Positions 4,361 to 51,509 of a stretch of DNA of 52,701 nucleotides are shown here, one piece after another (within the stretch, counting starts at the first letter, position 1; every line of letters starts with the position of its first letter). This DNA comes from a virus: the IMG/VR virus record IMGVR_UViG_3300035691_000007, positions 1 through 52,701 of that record. One strand, written 5' to 3'. Below the pieces are notes generated by a model. It saw only the letters and a program-made list of their open reading frames with translations. It was not told the DNA's origin and made no database searches. Made by a program: the position numbers and the translations under genes.

Positions 4361-5173
4361 TTAGTCGCACAGATTCACCCACTTGGTTCCTTGGCAGCCA
4401 AGTTTGATGAGAATCTTGACGGCGATCTCAGCCATCAGTGAAAGAATGCTGTCGCGTTTTGCGCCGCCGCCGACGCCGTCGGCGGCGGCGCAGGCGGCGG
4501 CGGCGGCGTCGGCGGCGCAGGCGGCGTCGGCGGCGTCGGCGGCGCAGGCGGCGGCGGCGGCGTCGGCGGCGGCGTCGGCGGCGCAGGCGGCGGCGCAGGC
4601 GGCGGCGCAGGCGGCGGCGGCGGCGTCGGCGGCGCAGGCGGCGTCGGCGGCGGCGGCGGCGTCGGCGGCGCAGGCGGCGTCGGCGGCGCAGGCGGCGTCG
4701 GCGGCGTCGGCGAACTTCCACGCCTTTTGTGCTGATTCTCGCGTGCCGGTTTTGGCGCATTCATCGGCGGCAAACTCAAATCCCTCCGCGTGCTTTGGAT
4801 TCAGCTTGGCGGCAGCACGCAGCGCGATTGGCACAATCTGACGGATTGTTTCTTCGGCGAGCAGGCGCGCAAATTCCTGCTGATTAATCTGGTCGCTTCC
4901 AAGCTGGGCAATGGCGAGCCGCCGCAAGCCTTTGGCGCGAGTCGCTAGCGATGACCACTTTCTGTCGTTGAGAGAAATATTGAATCGGCGCACGGCGCTC
5001 CCAACGCAAGGAGGCGTGTCCGAATGTGGAAGCTCGAACGCAAAGCAAACCGCGGCCTCAACGCACATCTCGCCCGGCTTCTGCTTGCCAAGCCCATGCG
5101 ACAGGCCGCAATCGACGGTTTCCAGCACCTTGCGTGCGATTTTCTTGGTGGGTTTGTGTTCCGCTGTTTTCAT
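4361..5173 (-). CDS. Protein with Ala-Ala-(Asp/Cys/Ala) repeat domain, 270 aa
   Basis: Residues 1-150 are an ordinary globular, mainly helical domain (start MKTAEHKPTKKIARKVLETV, with several Cys). Residues about 150-232 are a pure run of AAX triplets, where X is Asp, Cys or Ala. Residues 233-270 return to normal sequence and end in GCQGTKWVNLCD. The repeat would form a long helix with Asp and Cys on a rotating stripe. The gene is led by a promoter-like site at 5185-5211. Similar Ala/Asp-rich repeat tracts occur in phage and metagenome proteins without a known function. Confidence 0.75.
   Translation of the reverse strand: MKTAEHKPTKKIARKVLETVDCGLSHGLGKQKPGEMCVEAAVCFAFELPHSDTPPCVGSAVRRFNISLNDRKWSSLATRAKGLRRLAIAQLGSDQINQQEFARLLAEETIRQIVPIALRAAAKLNPKHAEGFEFAADECAKTGTRESAQKAWKFADAADAACAADAACAADAAAAADAACAADAAAAACAAACAAACAADAAADAAAAACAADAADAACAADAAAAACAAADGVGGGAKRDSILSLMAEIAVKILIKLGCQGTKWVNLCD
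4470..4711. repeat. GC-rich 9-bp repeat tract inside the Ala/Asp/Cys gene
   Basis: About 240 bp built from GGCGGC plus GTC or GCA triplets on the plus strand. On the minus strand this is GCC GCC followed by GAC, TGC or GCC. Changes are almost confined to the X codon of each AAX unit. One plus-strand frame reads as unbroken poly-Arg, but it has no plausible gene context. The tract is prone to length change and to assembly collapse. Confidence 0.9.
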
Positions 5174-13497: not shown

Positions 13498-13575
13498 TGG
13501 TCGCCGTTACCGGATTTGAACCGATGACCTCATGCTCCCAAAGCACGCGCTCCAGCCAGACTGAGCTAAACGGCG
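13498..13575 (-). tRNA. tRNA-Pro (anticodon UGG), CCA encoded
   Basis: A full cloverleaf can be drawn. Acceptor CGCCGTT/AACGGCG; D-arm GCTC/GAGC; anticodon stem CGTGC/GCATG (one G-U) around the loop TTTGGGA, giving anticodon UGG; T-arm ATCGG/CCGGT around TTCAAAT. The discriminator is A, and CCA is encoded. A C1-G72 pair is the known identity feature of bacterial tRNA-Pro. Length 78. It reads CCA/CCG-type Pro codons by wobble and lies between accessory genes, where phages commonly place a single tRNA. Confidence 0.93.
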
Positions 13576-15954: not shown

Positions 15955-16733
15955 AAAAAGCACACTCCGCTTGAGCAGTGGGTTCGTTCGTCAAACAACT
16001 CTGTCTGACCGCTGACGGGGACGGATTTCGCGAAGTCGATGGTGTCGATTGGGCGGCATGATGGATGAAGCCAGATGGTCGGGTCTTTCATCTGGATTTC
16101 ACGCTCAAGTTCAGCGGCAAGCCTCAGTTCCTCCGGTGTGATGTCGGCCCACTCGTCATCGCTCTGGTTTGGGCAGTTGTAGCACATTGAGCGCGGAGGA
16201 TCGGGCCAGCCCAGAGAGCGGACAAAATCAATGGACTGCTGGCGGCGCATCGGCCTGTCGTTGATGAGCGGGAAACGAATCCGTCCAGCCTGCCAGTCCT
16301 TGCCGCCCATCATCCTCATGGCGCGCCTTGCCTCATCGGTTGAGAACCCGATCCAGCGGCGCTGTTCCTTGGTCGGGATTCCGAGGCTTCTGAGGAAGCG
16401 TTCACATGGTCTGACCTTCCACTCATTCGAGCAAAACCCTTCCAGCTTGCCGATGCCGCCATTGGAGGTTGTGAAGGCTGGCATGAGCATGTTTTCACCG
16501 TTGGTTGACCAGATGCCACAGGTGGCCCATTCCTGACCGATGCGATGTACTTCAATTCCAACCGCCAGAAGTGCGGGACGTACAACTTCATCAAGGTATT
16601 TCCAAGTGGTGGCCTTCTCGCGCCCAGTGTCGGCGATGACCACGAAATCAGGCTTTGGAAGCAAACCTTGAACAATCATGCCAGAAATGCAGGTACTCTG
16701 GGTGCCCCCTCCGCTTGTGAAGATTTCAGTCAT
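15951..16733 (-). CDS. PP-loop ATP pyrophosphatase, PAPS-reductase-like, 260 aa
   Basis: The N-terminal loop TSGGGTQSTCI is the SGG-x-x-S PP-loop that binds ATP pyrophosphate, followed by FVVIADTGREKATTWKYLDE, as in phosphoadenosine-phosphosulfate reductase-type enzymes. Later CYNCPNQSDDEW and a C-terminal HCSSGVCFL give two cysteine pairs that could carry sulfur or a metal. Phage members of this superfamily are thought to act in nucleotide or tRNA thiolation or DNA modification, but the substrate here is not known. Start at ATG 16733 lies right after the structured non-coding region. Confidence 0.75.
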   Translation of the reverse strand: MTEIFTSGGGTQSTCISGMIVQGLLPKPDFVVIADTGREKATTWKYLDEVVRPALLAVGIEVHRIGQEWATCGIWSTNGENMLMPAFTTSNGGIGKLEGFCSNEWKVRPCERFLRSLGIPTKEQRRWIGFSTDEARRAMRMMGGKDWQAGRIRFPLINDRPMRRQQSIDFVRSLGWPDPPRSMCYNCPNQSDDEWADITPEELRLAAELEREIQMKDPTIWLHPSCRPIDTIDFAKSVPVSGQTELFDERTHCSSGVCFL

Positions 16734-16787
16734 GTTGCTGTTTCAGTTCCGGTTGGAGATTGTGATCTTGAGTTTGAGCGGGAGCGA

Positions 16788-17181
16788 GACAGCTACCCTT
16801 CTGCAAGGATAGCTGTCCGCATGGTTGAAGCCCGTGATCTTTGAGAATCGGGTATGCGTTTGGACAGTGCGCAGTCGGGACAGCCTGATACCATCAGAAA
16901 CCCGGAGCATTCCTGCTCGGCACTGGACAGTGGCGGCCAAGTCTTGGCACCGCCCTTTCAACCCCGCCGGTAGTCCACGGGGCGCTGTTTGTACAAGGGA
17001 CCGCCTTGGAGCGTTACCAAGGGTGTCCGGTCGCCATGTCCTGCATGGCCTTGTCTCGGAGGCATCCGACGAAGGAGAAAGCCCGCTCGATGTCGTTCCT
17101 CGGAAGTTGTGCGCTCCAAAAGGAAAGTGCGAAGCCGGGGCCTTCGGTTGTTTCGCAGAGCAAATGTCTGATGGAGCGCAC
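16788..17181 (-). ncRNA. Candidate large structured RNA (non-coding region A)
   Basis: The roughly 500 bp between 16734 and 17233 hold no convincing gene but many strong helices: 16788-16795/16810-16817 (8 bp, continued inward), GAGCA-TTCC-TGCTC (16905-16918), TGGAC/GTCCA (16924-28/16973-77) enclosing a 9-bp hairpin (16932-16954), GACCG+CCTTGG/CCAAGG+CGGTC (16999-17032), GCCATG-TCCTG-CATGGC (17033-17049), TCGGA/TCCGA (17056-17069) and a perfect 10-bp long-range helix 17109-17118/17172-17181. A C-A mismatch (16796/16809) becomes G-U on the minus strand and a TTCC loop becomes GGAA (GNRA), so transcription from the minus strand is likely. Size and density resemble the phage-borne GOLLD/ROOL class; identity is not shown. 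Confidence 0.6.
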
Positions 17182-17233
17182 GTCATACTGTTTTCACATC
17201 GCCTTCACGGTTGCAACTAAAATCGGTGGGTGG

Positions 17234-17623
17234 TCAATCGGGAACCGAGAATTTGAACTTCGGAAGCCGCTCAGCCACTTTTTGGCAGATGCCCTCAAGG
17301 CTCATGCCAGCGCCACGGTTTTCGACTGCATGGCGAATTTCCGGTTCCTTCACAAATCCAAGCTGCCACCCACGGAGCACGGCGAGCATCCTTGGCAGAT
17401 CGCAATCGCAGACATCCTTGTAGAGCATCCAGATTTTTGAGCCATAAATACCAAGCGAATCAAGCGACAGGATTGCTCCAAGACCGCCCATTGCGCTGTC
17501 GGGGTCGATTTGGCTGCCATCGGCAAGTATCTTCAGGATGACGGTCAAGGCGCCGGGATTTACTTCTGACATTTTGAACATCACGTCTTGTGTTGAATCG
17601 GCAAGTTGCAGTTTTGTTTTCAT
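17234..17623 (-). CDS. Hypothetical protein, 129 aa
   Basis: ATG 17623 follows an A/C-rich leader. It starts with MKTKLQLADSTQDVMFKMSE, then helical stretches (GALTVILKILADGSQIDPDS, LPRMLAVLRGWQLGFVKEPE) and a last region GAGMSLEGICQKVAERLPKF. No motif is recognised. It lies directly upstream (5') of the structured RNA region on the same strand. Confidence 0.65.
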   Translation of the reverse strand: MKTKLQLADSTQDVMFKMSEVNPGALTVILKILADGSQIDPDSAMGGLGAILSLDSLGIYGSKIWMLYKDVCDCDLPRMLAVLRGWQLGFVKEPEIRHAVENRGAGMSLEGICQKVAERLPKFKFSVPD

Positions 17624-17791: not shown

Positions 17792-17883
17792 GGCTTTGCA
17801 AGAAACATGCCGATGATTGTCATGGTAATCCACAGAGTGAAGATTGCCAGAATGGCTGGCCAGAATCTTACATTTGGACTCAT
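17788..17883 (-). CDS. Single-span membrane micro-peptide, 31 aa
   Basis: ATG 17883 overlaps the HNH stop (ATGA) and its own TGA (17788-17790) overlaps the next ATG. The peptide is MSPNVRFWPAILAIFTLWIT followed by MTIIGMFLAKP: a short polar start, a hydrophobic helix of about 20 residues and a Lys near the end. It is too short for most gene finders; coupling on both sides supports it. A membrane or host-takeover role is inference. Confidence 0.5.
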   Translation of the reverse strand: MSPNVRFWPAILAIFTLWITMTIIGMFLAKP

Positions 17884-18614
17884 GCCGCCCTACGTTCCAT
17901 CTTGTAGGCTCTTCGCCTTGGAAATTCCGGGATGGATGACTTGAATTTGTGAATTCTTTCGATCCACTCCGAAAATTCTTCAAGCGAATAAGTGCGCTTC
18001 GCCATGTTGCAGAAAGCACAACACGGGACTGCGTTTTCAGTGGTATAACCATCGGAATTCTTTACTCGATCAAGTCCGTTGTAGGCGAATGCGCCATTGA
18101 GTCCGATCCTAAACATTTCTGTCTTCGGTGGTGCTCCGCAATATGCACAGTCAGACGACGCGAGGTGGCGGAATTCTTCTCTCGACAGACTCCACTCACA
18201 CCCTCTGTTTTTGGCCATTCTTTGATACTGTCCAAACAAGACATTGAACGCTGATTCTCCGTGTGGCTTTTTGTGACCATTGACATATTTCCTGAAATCA
18301 CAACCACATGATTTTGAATAACCCGTTTTCAAGTCTCCACCGCGAACAGTTTTTACGGTTCCACAGTCGCATTTGCAAAGCCATATCCTTCCTGCAAATT
18401 TTTGAGACTTGACCATTCGTATAACAATGAGTTTTCCAAATCGCCGTCCAGTTAAATCAATTCCGGCGTGTGAACCATTTTTGTATGGTTCCTGTTTGAT
18501 TTGAGATTCAGTTGGGCTGCTCAAGGATTGAGGTTCATTTTCCCATTCGCGGGCGAGACGTTGCTGTTCGGCGTGAATCAAGTTCACTGGACTGCATGGA
18601 TGGTCGGGAATCAT
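17880..18614 (-). CDS. HNH homing-type endonuclease, 244 aa
   Basis: ATG 18614 overlaps the gene before by ATGA. Residues about 45-105 have DLTGRRFGKLIVI, then WLCKCDCGTVKTVRGGDLKT and SKSCGC, a zinc-ribbon-like DNA-binding module found in phage HNH homing enzymes. The nuclease core follows: CAYCGAPP (about 155), then YNGLDRVKNSDGYT (the D-R pair of the active strand) and AVPCCAFCNMAKRTYSLEEF. This is a complete, free-standing homing-type HNH gene; no intron ends are visible around it. Confidence 0.8.
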   Translation of the reverse strand: MIPDHPCSPVNLIHAEQQRLAREWENEPQSLSSPTESQIKQEPYKNGSHAGIDLTGRRFGKLIVIRMVKSQKFAGRIWLCKCDCGTVKTVRGGDLKTGYSKSCGCDFRKYVNGHKKPHGESAFNVLFGQYQRMAKNRGCEWSLSREEFRHLASSDCAYCGAPPKTEMFRIGLNGAFAYNGLDRVKNSDGYTTENAVPCCAFCNMAKRTYSLEEFSEWIERIHKFKSSIPEFPRRRAYKMERRAA

Positions 18615-18931
18615 GGCTTCATTCCTTTCGGTTTTGGGCCAACCTTGATTTCCTTGAACGAGTTCTCGTTGCTCATCATCCAAGTGACGCTTTTCTTTCC
18701 AGCCTCAACCCATGCCGGATTGATTTTCGTCTGCCCTTTCTCCAGCCGGTAGCTCAGGCTGTTGTTGCGGCGTTTGCTGCCGTTACGCCGACGCGAGTAT
18801 TCCCGCTTCAGGATGAAATGCTTGATGCACTCGTTGGCGCTGACCAGCGGTTCTGAGCAGTAGGCGCAACATCCTTTGCGCACATTCTCAATCTGCTTCA
18901 ATCGCTGGCGGCTGAGTGGCTTGCGTTTCAT
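18611..18931 (-). CDS. Cysteine-containing small protein, 106 aa
   Basis: Start at ATG 18931; upstream in-frame sequence is the antisense of the gene before. It begins MKRKPLSRQRLKQIENVRKG, followed by CCAYCSEPLVSANECIKHFI, a C-x2-C / C-x3-H arrangement like the first half of an HNH or zinc-finger unit, and then a basic stretch (RRNGSKRRNNSLSYRLEKGQ). No HNH catalytic triad is visible. It is coupled to the real HNH gene that follows. Confidence 0.6.
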   Translation of the reverse strand: MKRKPLSRQRLKQIENVRKGCCAYCSEPLVSANECIKHFILKREYSRRRNGSKRRNNSLSYRLEKGQTKINPAWVEAGKKSVTWMMSNENSFKEIKVGPKPKGMKP

Positions 18932-33997: not shown

Positions 33998-35169
33998 CCG
34001 ACATCCTCGCCCCAAATCCAAACATTCGCGGTCGCTGCGCTGCCTTGCGGGGTGCTGAGAGCAAGATAGACGGTTGCCGCCGTGAACACGTCCGTTCCAA
34101 CCACAGCCTCCAATGTGAGACTCAGATATTTGGATGAAGCGGTGAGCGCGGAGTAAACCTGTCCCGCCGCGACGATGGTTGTTCCTGACATTCCTGCGCC
34201 AGTGTAAAATCCCCCTGCGGCTGTCGTAAGGCTGATGGAGGCATTGTCCACAACGATGCGCCGGATGATGTAGCGTGAACTGCCGACAATGGTGATGGCT
34301 TGGTCGGAGCCTGAGTTGAAGTTGGCTCCAACGAGAGAACCAAGCAGTCCGTAACGAGGAAGCACCGCCAGCACCCCGCGCTGTGCCGCCACGGTCGCCG
34401 CATTTACCAGCGTGCGGGCAACGGCGGTGAACACGGCCAATCCCGCTGTGCCTGCTCCGGTGAAGTAAGGCAGACGGTCAGCGGCACTGACCAATCCGGC
34501 AAGCGCCGCAAGTTCAGCGTCGTATTGCTGGACATCACTGCCAATCGCCACACCAAGGTTCGTTCGCGCTCCGGCTGCCGTGGAAGCTCCGGTGCCACCA
34601 TCAGCAACGGCGAGGTCGGTAATTCCCGTAATGCTTCCGCCAGTGATTGTGACGGCGCTTGCTGCCTGTGTTGCCATCGTGCCGAGTCCAAGATTGGTGC
34701 GGGCAGTGGCAACGGTCGTGAGGTCGGAAAGGTTGTTGGCTGCGAGCAATGCGCCTGCGGAAGCCGCGCCTGCCGGTCCCTGAAAACCACCGGGGGAAAG
34801 TTTGCTGCCGGAAGCGAACACCGTTCCGGGAGCGGCATTGCCCGCGTAGGCGGCACTGCCAGCGTCCTCAAGGTTTTTTAGTGTCACCGTGACGGCATCA
34901 ATGATGGCTGTGGCTTGCAGGTAGGAACCAAGAAGACAGAGAACCTGATTGAGAGTGATGTAACCGCTATTGACCACCGTGGCGTTCGCAGTAGCCAACT
35001 CAGCGGGCATGGTGAAGTTTGCCGAGAGAGTGGTGTAGGCGTTCTGGCCGTTGGTTCCGTTGGTTCCACCTGCGCCAGCGTCACCTTTTGGACCGGGCAC
35101 AGAAACTATTGTGGAATCTTCACAGGACGGAAGGCAGCAATTTGAAGCCGATGGCAAAGTCTCAGGCAC
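33994..35169 (-). CDS. Tail fibre with collagen-like start, 391 aa
   Basis: The frame opens with GTG at 35169; other GTG starts are possible. Residues 24-45 (VPGPKGDAGAGGTNGTNGQN) are a collagen-like Gly-x-y run. The middle holds fibre repeats such as NLSDLTTVATARTNLGLGTM and LAVADGGTGASTAAGARTNL, the standard tail-fibre 'GGTGASTAAGARTNL' motif. The C-terminal end (VYLALSTPQGSAATANVWIW) is likely a trimer tip. It is the first gene of the minus structural arm and its 5' end overlaps that of the terminase gene on the other strand. Confidence 0.75.
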   Translation of the reverse strand: MPETLPSASNCCLPSCEDSTIVSVPGPKGDAGAGGTNGTNGQNAYTTLSANFTMPAELATANATVVNSGYITLNQVLCLLGSYLQATAIIDAVTVTLKNLEDAGSAAYAGNAAPGTVFASGSKLSPGGFQGPAGAASAGALLAANNLSDLTTVATARTNLGLGTMATQAASAVTITGGSITGITDLAVADGGTGASTAAGARTNLGVAIGSDVQQYDAELAALAGLVSAADRLPYFTGAGTAGLAVFTAVARTLVNAATVAAQRGVLAVLPRYGLLGSLVGANFNSGSDQAITIVGSSRYIIRRIVVDNASISLTTAAGGFYTGAGMSGTTIVAAGQVYSALTASSKYLSLTLEAVVGTDVFTAATVYLALSTPQGSAATANVWIWGEDVG

Positions 35170-35375
35170 AGCAACTTGTTATCCACTGGCGGCGGAGAAT
35201 CAAGTTGAATCGTGCCGTCAACGTGGCACTGTGCCGTCTGTGGCTGCCAAAAAAGCACAGCAGTTGGAGCGGTACGGTTACAAGTTTGACGCCGCTTCCA
35301 ATACTGTCGCTGACATGCTTGAGCTTGAGCTGCTCTGCTATAGGACAAACCGCAAACCGGAAAAGGGTGGACTAG
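35151..35375 (+). other. Short overlapping frame ahead of the terminase
   Basis: ATG 35151 opens a plus-strand frame beginning MAKSQAQQLVIHWRRRIKLN and continuing to about residue 33 before it reaches a run of six A (35249-35254). The part up to that point looks protein-like (basic helix); the part after it, to the stop at 35375, is Ser/Leu-rich and less natural. A -1 shift at the A-run would join the first part to the terminase frame. It may be a decoy frame, a small gene or the true N-terminus of TerL. Confidence 0.35.
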
Positions 35376-37042
35376 GAAGGGCTGGACATTTCCGCAACAT
35401 CGTCAATCTCATTTGGGGGCCGGACAACAAGCAGAAGAATTTCATCTGGCATCCGTGGGCGGAAAAGATGAACGAGGAAGTTCATTTCGAGGAAACACTC
35501 GCGGATGGTTCTATCCGACAACGCAGATACTTAGGGGTATCTGGGGCGGCGAGCAGTGGCAAAACTGACTTTTTCGGCGTGTATGGTTTGGTGAACTGGA
35601 TATGCGATCCAGTCAACACGCTCATCCTTTGCACGTCCACCGACCTGAAGGCTTCGCGCCTGCGCATCTGGGGCGCGATCAAATCCTATTTCGATTCCAA
35701 GCCCAAGGAATTCTGGCCGGGACGGTTGGTGGATTCCTCCGGTCAGATTGTCACCACCAATGAGAGTGGCGACCGCCTCAATGACCGCAGCGGGCTTGTC
35801 CTGATTGCCGGTGAGAAGAAGAAGGAGCGTGATGCCATTGGAAAAATAATCGGCGCAAAGAATCATCACGTCATCTTCATTTGCGATGAGTTGCCGGAAC
35901 TCAGCGAGGCTTTGCTTGAGGCTGCATATTCCAACCTTGTCGCCAATCCGCGCTTTGAAATGGTCGGGCTTGGAAACTTCAAGAGCCGCTATGATGCGTT
36001 CGGACAGTTCATCGCACCGAAGGCAGGATGGGATTCGCTCACATTGGAGTCGGATGATTGGGAAACGGAAAAGGGATGCTGCATCAGGTTTGACGGGATG
36101 CGCAGTCCGAATGTGCTTTCCGGAAAGGATGAGTGGCCGATCTACGGCAGCAAGCAACTCGCCGCGCACCGCAAGGATTTGGGAGAACACACGGCGGGAT
36201 TCTGGCGCATGTGCCGCAGTTTCGAGGCACCCATCGGACTTGATGACGCGATCTATTCGGAGAGCGACCTCGTTGCGGGCGATGCCTATTCCGCACCGCA
36301 ATGGCTGACGCGCCCTCTCAAATTCTCGACGCTTGACCCGTCGTTCACCAATGGCGGCGACAGGTGCATCCAATGGTTCGGTTCCTACGGGCGCACCATC
36401 GACGGGATTGATGTTCTGGCCTTTGACCATTGCATCAAACTCACCGAGGACGTGCGGATCAAGGACGTGAACCGGGACTACCAGATTGCACGCCAGTTCC
36501 GTGACAACTGCCTCAAGGAAGGAATTCCGCCGAATCGTTGTGGCATGGACTCGACGGCGGCGGGCGGTGTCCTTCATTCGATCATCAGCGAGGAATGGTC
36601 GCCGGAAGTGTTACGAGTGGATTTCTCCGGAATGCCAAGTGACATGATCGTGGTTCCGAACTCCGGCAAGACAGCCAAGCAGTCCTATGACCGGAAGGTG
36701 ACTGAGTTGTGGTACGTCGGGAAGGAGTTCCTGAAATACAAACAACTCAAGGGCATCACGCCGGAACTTGCACGCGAGATGAAGGCGCGCAAGTACGTTA
36801 CAGTGAAGACGGGTGACGGACTCAAGATGAAGGTGGAGACGAAAACAGAGATGAAGGCGCGGTTGTTGTTTTCTCCTGATGAGGCGGACGCGGCTTTTGT
36901 GATGCTCCACCTTGTCCGTATGCGTCATGGGTTTCTGCCCGGTGGTGACAACCGGGGCATGGGCGGGATGCGTCAGAACTTCCTTGAAGTGGCGCGGCAA
37001 GTGGATAGTGTCAACCAAGTTCACTATGCCGATGCGGATTAG
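35231..37042 (+). CDS. Terminase large subunit (TerL), about 603 aa
   Basis: Walker A is YLGVSGAASSGKTDFFGVYG, and the Walker B strand ends in HVIFICDELPEL (Asp-Glu). The nuclease part shows FSTLDPSFTNGGDRCIQWFG (first metal Asp), CGMDSTAAGGVLHS and a late DEADAAFVMLHLVRM. These are the ATPase and RNase-H-like headful/cos nuclease parts of a packaging motor. GTG 35231 (or 35240) is given as the start; the in-frame region further upstream is antisense to the fibre gene, and a -1 shift from ATG 35151 is an alternative. No small terminase was recognised. Confidence 0.85.
   Translation: MPSVAAKKAQQLERYGYKFDAASNTVADMLELELLCYRTNRKPEKGGLGRAGHFRNIVNLIWGPDNKQKNFIWHPWAEKMNEEVHFEETLADGSIRQRRYLGVSGAASSGKTDFFGVYGLVNWICDPVNTLILCTSTDLKASRLRIWGAIKSYFDSKPKEFWPGRLVDSSGQIVTTNESGDRLNDRSGLVLIAGEKKKERDAIGKIIGAKNHHVIFICDELPELSEALLEAAYSNLVANPRFEMVGLGNFKSRYDAFGQFIAPKAGWDSLTLESDDWETEKGCCIRFDGMRSPNVLSGKDEWPIYGSKQLAAHRKDLGEHTAGFWRMCRSFEAPIGLDDAIYSESDLVAGDAYSAPQWLTRPLKFSTLDPSFTNGGDRCIQWFGSYGRTIDGIDVLAFDHCIKLTEDVRIKDVNRDYQIARQFRDNCLKEGIPPNRCGMDSTAAGGVLHSIISEEWSPEVLRVDFSGMPSDMIVVPNSGKTAKQSYDRKVTELWYVGKEFLKYKQLKGITPELAREMKARKYVTVKTGDGLKMKVETKTEMKARLLFSPDEADAAFVMLHLVRMRHGFLPGGDNRGMGGMRQNFLEVARQVDSVNQVHYADAD
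35249..35255 (+). promoter_or_regulatory. A AAA AAG slippery heptamer
   Basis: In the frame that begins at ATG 35151 the codons are CCA AAA AAG, so the heptamer A AAA AAG stands in the exact phase needed for -1 slippage, as in E. coli dnaX. After slippage, reading goes on as GCA CAG CAG in the terminase frame. A nearby CTGTGGCTGC and GCACAGCAG can pair around it. It could equally be a miscount of a homopolymer. Confidence 0.35.
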
Positions 37043-50670: not shown

Positions 50671-51262
50671 GAAACTCAGAACAGTGGCAGTTGAGCAGGT
50701 ACCAAGTACGGGTACAGGTACCGAAATGAAGCTATTGAGTTTGTCTTAAGGCTTTTCTCTGAGTTTCCCACGGGACATTTCCTTGCGAGAACATCACAAG
50801 TTTGAAGTAGTCTTTGAAGCCGTGCTTTTCTCTTGAGAACCCACGTCTACGTTTTTCTTGCATCGTGTAAGGCGCGTGGGAACAGATTCACGGCCCGTCT
50901 GCAAGTTCCATTCTGCTCGCTCGATGGGGGTTTCACCCATCTTCAGTGCCGACCGGAAATGTCATAAAGGATCGGCAACGTACAGCTTCAAAGAACGACT
51001 GTTTGTCCGTGGGAGAACGCAGAAAACCCACCCCAGATTGCTCCGGGGTGGGCCTACGATGCCACGCCTTGACAGGTAACTGCGCAAAGTGCGCAGAGGC
51101 TTTCGCCTTTGAACGGTGTGGAATCTAACTTTTCGATTCGGTTGTCGCTCATAAACCTGTCAAGGTTCTGATGCGCACAAACTGAACCAGATCGCGGTTC
51201 CCGTCAACCCTTTTCGTCACCCGTCTAGCCGTAAGGCTTGGCGGTCAGGCGGTGTGGGATTC
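50670..51262 (-). ncRNA. Candidate large structured RNA (non-coding region B)
   Basis: Between two converging genes lie about 590 bp with no convincing gene and three nested domains. Domain 1: an 11-bp perfect stem 50670-50680/50758-50768. Domain 2: about 9 bp, 50765-50775 with 51003-51012, closing several hairpins (GCCGA/TCGGC 50948-52/50972-76; GATGGG/CCCATC; GGAAC/GTTCC 50879-83/50905-09). Domain 3: an 11-bp perfect stem 51067-51077/51155-51165 holding CTGCGC/GCGCAG and AGGC/GCCT hairpins. A C-A mismatch (50953/50971) becomes U-G on the minus strand, and a GAAA loop appears there (51097-51108). A GUAA loop at 51227-51238 would instead suit the plus strand, so the strand is not certain. Confidence 0.55.
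51019..51052 (-). terminator. Intrinsic terminator of the minus-strand arm
   Basis: On the minus strand CCCACCCC (51052-51045) pairs with GGGGTGGG (51034-51027) around a 10-base loop and is followed at once by TTTTCT. It would end transcripts coming from the last genes of the minus arm (51263-51487 and before), leaving about 240 bases of structured 3' RNA. Confidence 0.7.
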
Positions 51263-51487
51263 TTAGACTAGCAGCAAATTGTAAAGCCACTTGCGAAGAC
51301 TGCGCTTTGGTGGCGGAGGCGGAATTGAACGCCACCCACTAAACTGTTCATCGCATTGAATGAAGTGTTGACGAACGGTTGAGCAATAAAATCCCGTCCT
51401 TGCACACTTTCCGAATTCACCACTGCCACGCTGATGCGCACAGTTGTCACAAGATTTGATCGTAGAATTCAGATATTCAACCTTCAT
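51263..51487 (-). CDS. Cysteine-rich phage protein, 74 aa
   Basis: The core is CDNCAHQRGSGEFGKCARTG, then FYCSTVRQHFIQCDEQFSGW. The spacing C-x2-C ... C ... C ... C-x-E-x-F-x-G-W is a common small phage zinc-binding type seen at the end of early operons. The C-terminal tail (PPPPPKRSLRKWLYNLLLV) has a Pro run and a short amphipathic end. Role unknown. It is the last gene before the structured RNA and terminator. Confidence 0.75.
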   Translation of the reverse strand: MKVEYLNSTIKSCDNCAHQRGSGEFGKCARTGFYCSTVRQHFIQCDEQFSGWRSIPPPPPKRSLRKWLYNLLLV

Positions 51488-51509
51488 AGAATCTCAATCA
51501 CGGTTCGTT

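Follow-up and report, generated by a model that had tools for sequence, protein, structure and literature searches.

A structured, apparently non-coding gap in a minus-strand phage gene block: a possible leader of an operon mRNA

The gap and its neighbouring genes

The DNA analysed here (referred to as the window) is a 52.7-kb viral contig from an uncultured bacterial virus. Between 12 and 20 kb it holds a block of genes that are small, mostly unconserved, and all on the minus strand. A 500-bp gap had been proposed in this block from a reading of the sequence alone, and it is real, being bounded exactly by a stop codon (TGA) at 17234 and an ATG at 16733 (Table 1). In the direction of the block, the gene before the gap encodes a conserved phage protein with 19 relatives in viral contigs (identity up to 59%), and the gene after it encodes a PAPS-reductase-like protein (PAPS-like below) whose viral-contig relatives reach 61% identity. 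The sequence-only reading had also drawn attention to a tRNA gene 3 kb away; the gene is present, but it stands alone and does not form a tRNA island. Searches for tandem arrays, tRNA and tmRNA inside the gap found none.

Table 1. Coordinates of the features discussed, in the window unless a lake-phage contig is named.
Feature	Position	Strand	Remarks
tRNA-Pro (tgg) gene	13498-13575	-	single
Downstream gene: PAPS-reductase-like protein, 260 aa	15951-16733	-	PHROG 424, E 1.5e-24
Gap; looks non-coding, candidate structured RNA or mRNA leader	16734-17233	-	no period-3, negative codon scores, fold z -2.72
Probably spurious open frame of 147 codons crossing the gap	16743-17186	-
14-bp hairpin (13-14 bp), 4-nt loop; strongest element of the gap	16787-16818	-	-22.3 kcal/mol on minus, -16.2 on plus
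Bulged 9-bp hairpin	16931-16960	-	-11.5 kcal/mol on minus
11-bp stem, 5-nt bulge, 7-nt loop	16999-17032	-	-13.6 kcal/mol on minus
55-codon GTG frame	17014-17181	-	weak coding-like composition, without homologue
Domain closed by perfect 10-bp helix (17109-17118 with 17172-17181)	17109-17181	-
Upstream gene: conserved phage protein, 129 aa	17234-17623	-	family without known function; viral-contig relatives
HNH endonuclease gene	17880-18683		<1 kb upstream of gap
Terminase large subunit	35051-37042		at least 253 clade members among viral contigs
Most structured non-coding part of the window	50671-51500	-	z -4.9; 500-nt tile z -5.7
Intrinsic-terminator-like hairpin	~51021-51046	-	CCCACCCCGGAGCAATCTGGGGTGGG-TTTT
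Lake-phage RNA, L125	490-1251
Lake-phage RNA, L128	490-1227
Lake-phage RNA, L138	1555-2245
Lake-phage RNA, L218	490-1228
Lake-phage RNA, L126 and L215

Coding potential

Several measures point to a lack of coding signal in the gap. Period-3 power is 0.66, compared with a median of 4.6 for window tiles, and the codon log-likelihood is below zero in every frame. The frames of the gap gave no match to known gene families, and a comparison with Pfam gave nothing at E <= 1. The earlier statement that there is no credible gene is upheld to this extent, but it had missed a minus-strand open frame of 147 codons that covers 444 of the 500 bases, beginning 47 bp past one gene and stopping 9 bp short of the next.

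An open frame as long as this occurs in 0.9% of dinucleotide shuffles. Its per-codon score is -0.158, within the range of a reference set of 51 spurious frames within long genes (-0.142 +/- 0.10), and the GC fraction of its second codon positions is 0.61, compared with 0.51 or less in all listed operon-strand neighbours. The mean AlphaFold pLDDT of its product is 37, and searches of PDB, Pfam and phages gave no homologue. From its composition and the structural model, the frame looks spurious; this falls short of proof because a recognised HNH gene nearby has similarly weak codon statistics, so that the codon-score test has limited power. Taken on sequence, the gap probably carries no protein gene.

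Helices and folding

The helices named in the sequence-only reading exist in the gap, among them the perfect 10-bp helix and the 11-bp stem with its 5-nt bulge. The first hairpin, at 16787-16818, has the sequence GGACAGCTATCCTT-GCAG-AAGGGTAGCTGTCT and lies ~53 nt upstream of the PAPS-like gene. As had been noticed, a C-A mismatch within it turns into a G-U pair on the minus strand, and it is only as minus-strand RNA, via this G-U pair, that the hairpin is fully paired. Among 36-nt hairpins in the window it ranks with the strongest.

As a 500-nt unit, the minus strand folds to -179.8 kcal/mol compared with -162.9 +/- 6.2 kcal/mol in shuffles, and none of 100 shuffles was as good; the z value of the plus strand is -1.12. 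Mean positional entropy is 0.71 for the minus strand, 1.24 for the plus strand, and 1.10 for window tiles, and the minimum-energy fold pairs the two ends of the gap. Perfect hairpins of at least 5 pairs number eight, compared with 2.45 in shuffles, and this count is reached by only 2 of 104 tiles, the tile of the gap included. Across the window, perfect inverted repeats of at least 10 bp are themselves frequent (23 observed, ~6 expected by chance). The fold z of the gap ranks about 13th among 208 window tiles, with about a dozen matching or beating it, several of them within genes; among the 160-nt tiles of the gap, z approaches -3 only near the hairpin at 16787-16818. The folding excess over chance is modest, and the case for structure is suggestive but not strong, because other window tiles fold equally well and the 160-nt tiles of the gap peak only at its main hairpin.

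Searches for relatives and known RNA classes

Comparison of the gap by blastn with 50,697 phage records and with 72,556 plasmids gave nothing significant in either collection. No homologue was present in 45 records of terminase relatives, beside relatives of either flanking gene, or in any fetched locus, and an exact-pattern scan with the main hairpin returned two chance matches, both within coding sequence. Among relatives of the upstream gene, the downstream gene, and the terminase, none showed this gene order or a gap resembling this one. Both flanking genes occur in other phages but were never seen together, or with a gap of this kind, among the loci examined; neither retains its neighbour in relatives. 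The closest PAPS-like genes in other phages are without a comparable upstream region: some lie 37 bp after a terL-like gene and some overlap the previous gene. The closest relatives of the terminase large subunit are 47-51% identical, with none nearer than ~51%, and the phage lineage is therefore isolated in the collections searched. Scanning cellular genomes for the terminase gave no hit.

It had been suggested that the gap could encode a member of a class of large phage RNAs such as GOLLD or ROOL. A scan with Rfam 15 (GOLLD, ROOL, OLE, and all other families) gave no match to the gap at the gathering score, and up to E = 10 the sole match was an irrelevant snoRNA just outside it. As no covariance model matches, membership in GOLLD, ROOL, or OLE is rejected, and none of the remaining Rfam 15 families is supported. 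GOLLD and ROOL are often situated near tRNA islands, many GOLLD RNAs are longer than 800 nt, and ROOL is present in many kinds of phages and prophages (PMC12286853). With GOLLD the gap shares a phage-encoded, non-coding sequence of hundreds of nucleotides and the presence of a tRNA in the genome. It differs in the lack of a covariance-model match even at E = 10, in its smaller size, and in having one tRNA-Pro 3 kb away where GOLLD is often, although not universally, near a tRNA island. ROOL is similar in size class and phage location; again the covariance model gives no match, and ROOL is widespread whereas the sequence of the gap was found in no phage searched. The OLE model likewise does not match.

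An untranslated operon leader as the best explanation

Our best explanation, which we put forward tentatively, is that the gap corresponds to a structured, untranslated segment of the minus-strand operon mRNA and acts as a leader of the PAPS-like gene. The observed basis of this reading is the gap itself, its lack of coding signal, its hairpins, and its strand preference. All genes of the 12-20 kb block, the two flanking ones included, are on the minus strand, folding clearly beats shuffles on that strand only, and the main hairpin gains ~6 kcal/mol there through its G-U pair. A new structured RNA from the minus strand would agree with this strand bias and with the absence of coding signal. 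The gap showed no promoter-like site, and the search for terminator-like sites gave a single weak 5-bp match, which is the background rate; a separate transcription unit is therefore not indicated. Since transcription is expected from upstream and the gap has no promoter or convincing terminator, the simplest reading is that it forms an untranslated part of the operon message.

According to this model, the gap would be transcribed from upstream within a polycistronic message, and its transcript would fold into several hairpins, the last of which, the 14-bp hairpin, would stand ~50 nt before the PAPS-like gene. This hairpin could protect or define the 5' end of the PAPS-like message, through processing, stability, or partial attenuation, and the A/C-rich stretch that follows it may stay free for the ribosome. 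Structured 5' leaders and processing hairpins are of a general kind in phage operon mRNA, and the gap shares with them a stable intercistronic hairpin on the coding strand, shortly before a start codon. Its length of 500 nt, however, is unusually long, and we know of no case of such a leader or processing hairpin with a PAPS-reductase-like gene. The closest PAPS-like genes in other phages, which have no comparable upstream region, argue against the leader, as does a modest folding excess that is common to about a dozen window tiles.

Alternative explanations

A close rival, doubtful in itself and nearly as likely as the leader, is that gene exchange left the gap behind as a spacer or scar without function, a remnant of the gain or loss of moron genes such as the HNH endonuclease or the PAPS-like gene, with structure that arose by chance. 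The setting is consistent with such exchange, in that the genes of the block are small and for the most part unconserved, an HNH endonuclease gene is close by, and the flanking genes do not keep their neighbours in relatives; furthermore, a fold z of -2.7 is unexceptional among window tiles. Phages, however, seldom retain 500 bp of unused DNA, and the eight short perfect hairpins, which place the gap in the top 2 of 104 tiles, and the asymmetry of folding between the strands also count against a spacer.

We consider it unlikely that the gap encodes a large, free-standing structured RNA of 400-500 nt belonging to a new class of the same sort as GOLLD, ROOL, and OLE. The size of the gap, its many hairpins, and the end-to-end closing pairing of the minimum-energy fold are in keeping with such an RNA, and the lack of an Rfam match would be compatible with a new class. 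The large phage RNAs known so far are each found in many different phages, whereas the gap has no relative in any search; it also has no promoter and no terminator-like site above background, and its fold z falls well short of that of 50671-51500 in the same genome. A more specific version of this proposal, which we think improbable, would have a new class of large phage RNA of ~400-480 nt confined to a sparsely sampled lineage within the terminase clade, with its ends paired and its 3' domain formed by the 14-bp hairpin.

We hold an orphan protein gene in the operon direction, whether the frame of 147 codons or that of 55 codons, to be similarly unlikely: the length of the longer frame, its placement between the two genes, and the poor codon statistics of the recognised HNH gene would allow it, but the spurious-like score per codon, the GC at codon position 2, the absence of homologues, and the low pLDDT all weigh against it. 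Least probable of all is a predicted DNA element (an operator, replication origin, or recombination site with inverted repeats as protein-binding sites in double-stranded DNA), for although there is a perfect inverted repeat, and a 19-nt direct repeat (16751-16769, 16823-16841) flanks the main hairpin, an imperfect two-copy direct repeat is at about chance level in 500 bp (an estimated ~0.4 expected), there are no iterons and no clear GC-skew turning point at the gap, and full pairing of that hairpin requires minus-strand RNA, with its G-U pair.

If the gap is a working RNA, it would add to the small set of large phage RNAs with unknown functions. At present it is a single sequence without relatives, and it serves mainly as a candidate to return to once a closer phage has been sequenced. 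A case with better support, a covarying lake-phage RNA situated between terS and terL, also emerged from its follow-up.

Other structured regions

In lake-phage contigs, a non-coding RNA of ~600-700 nt lies between terS-like and terL-like genes, names that are our own reading of sequences and positions and not a database result. It precedes a PAPS-reductase-like gene in L125, L126, L128, and L138, and gave no match in Rfam or in known phage records. In this RNA 98.8% of cells are paired, and an alignment of L125, L128, L138, and L218 has 10 two-sided compensatory pairs compared with 3.3 in shuffles, a count that leans towards structure because the structure was derived from the same four sequences; sliding the partner columns leaves one compensatory pair at most. 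Judged from these sequences, it is likely to be a new structured RNA class, and it is a far better case for one than the gap. The possibility that the gap is a diverged copy of the RNA in L125, L126, L128, and L138 was rejected, since nhmmer and blastn find no sequence similarity and the lake-phage RNA belongs to the terS-terL gap. A motif, TAGTCTAAGAWWCCCAC, is shared by the lake-phage RNA and positions 51254-51270 of the window; this was judged to be chance because a scan of the collection found the motif in unrelated contigs without wider similarity.

Within the window, the region at 50671-51500 is a better RNA candidate than the gap. It spans ~830 bp without a period-3 signal, folds more strongly than any other part of the window, and contains a multibranched domain with an 11-bp closing helix, followed by the terminator-like hairpin. 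A sub-threshold Rfam match to BjrC68 (E 0.0013) was obtained there, and no DNA relatives were found in phages or plasmids. Repeats are present elsewhere in the contig. A GC-rich 9/27-bp tandem repeat at 4461-4712, within a 270-aa ORF, holds the strongest short hairpins of the window. An array of the hexamer CGACCT occurs in the same orientation at both contig ends (1-125 and 52553-52699), and this may reflect a circular or circularly permuted genome whose assembly broke at a microsatellite.
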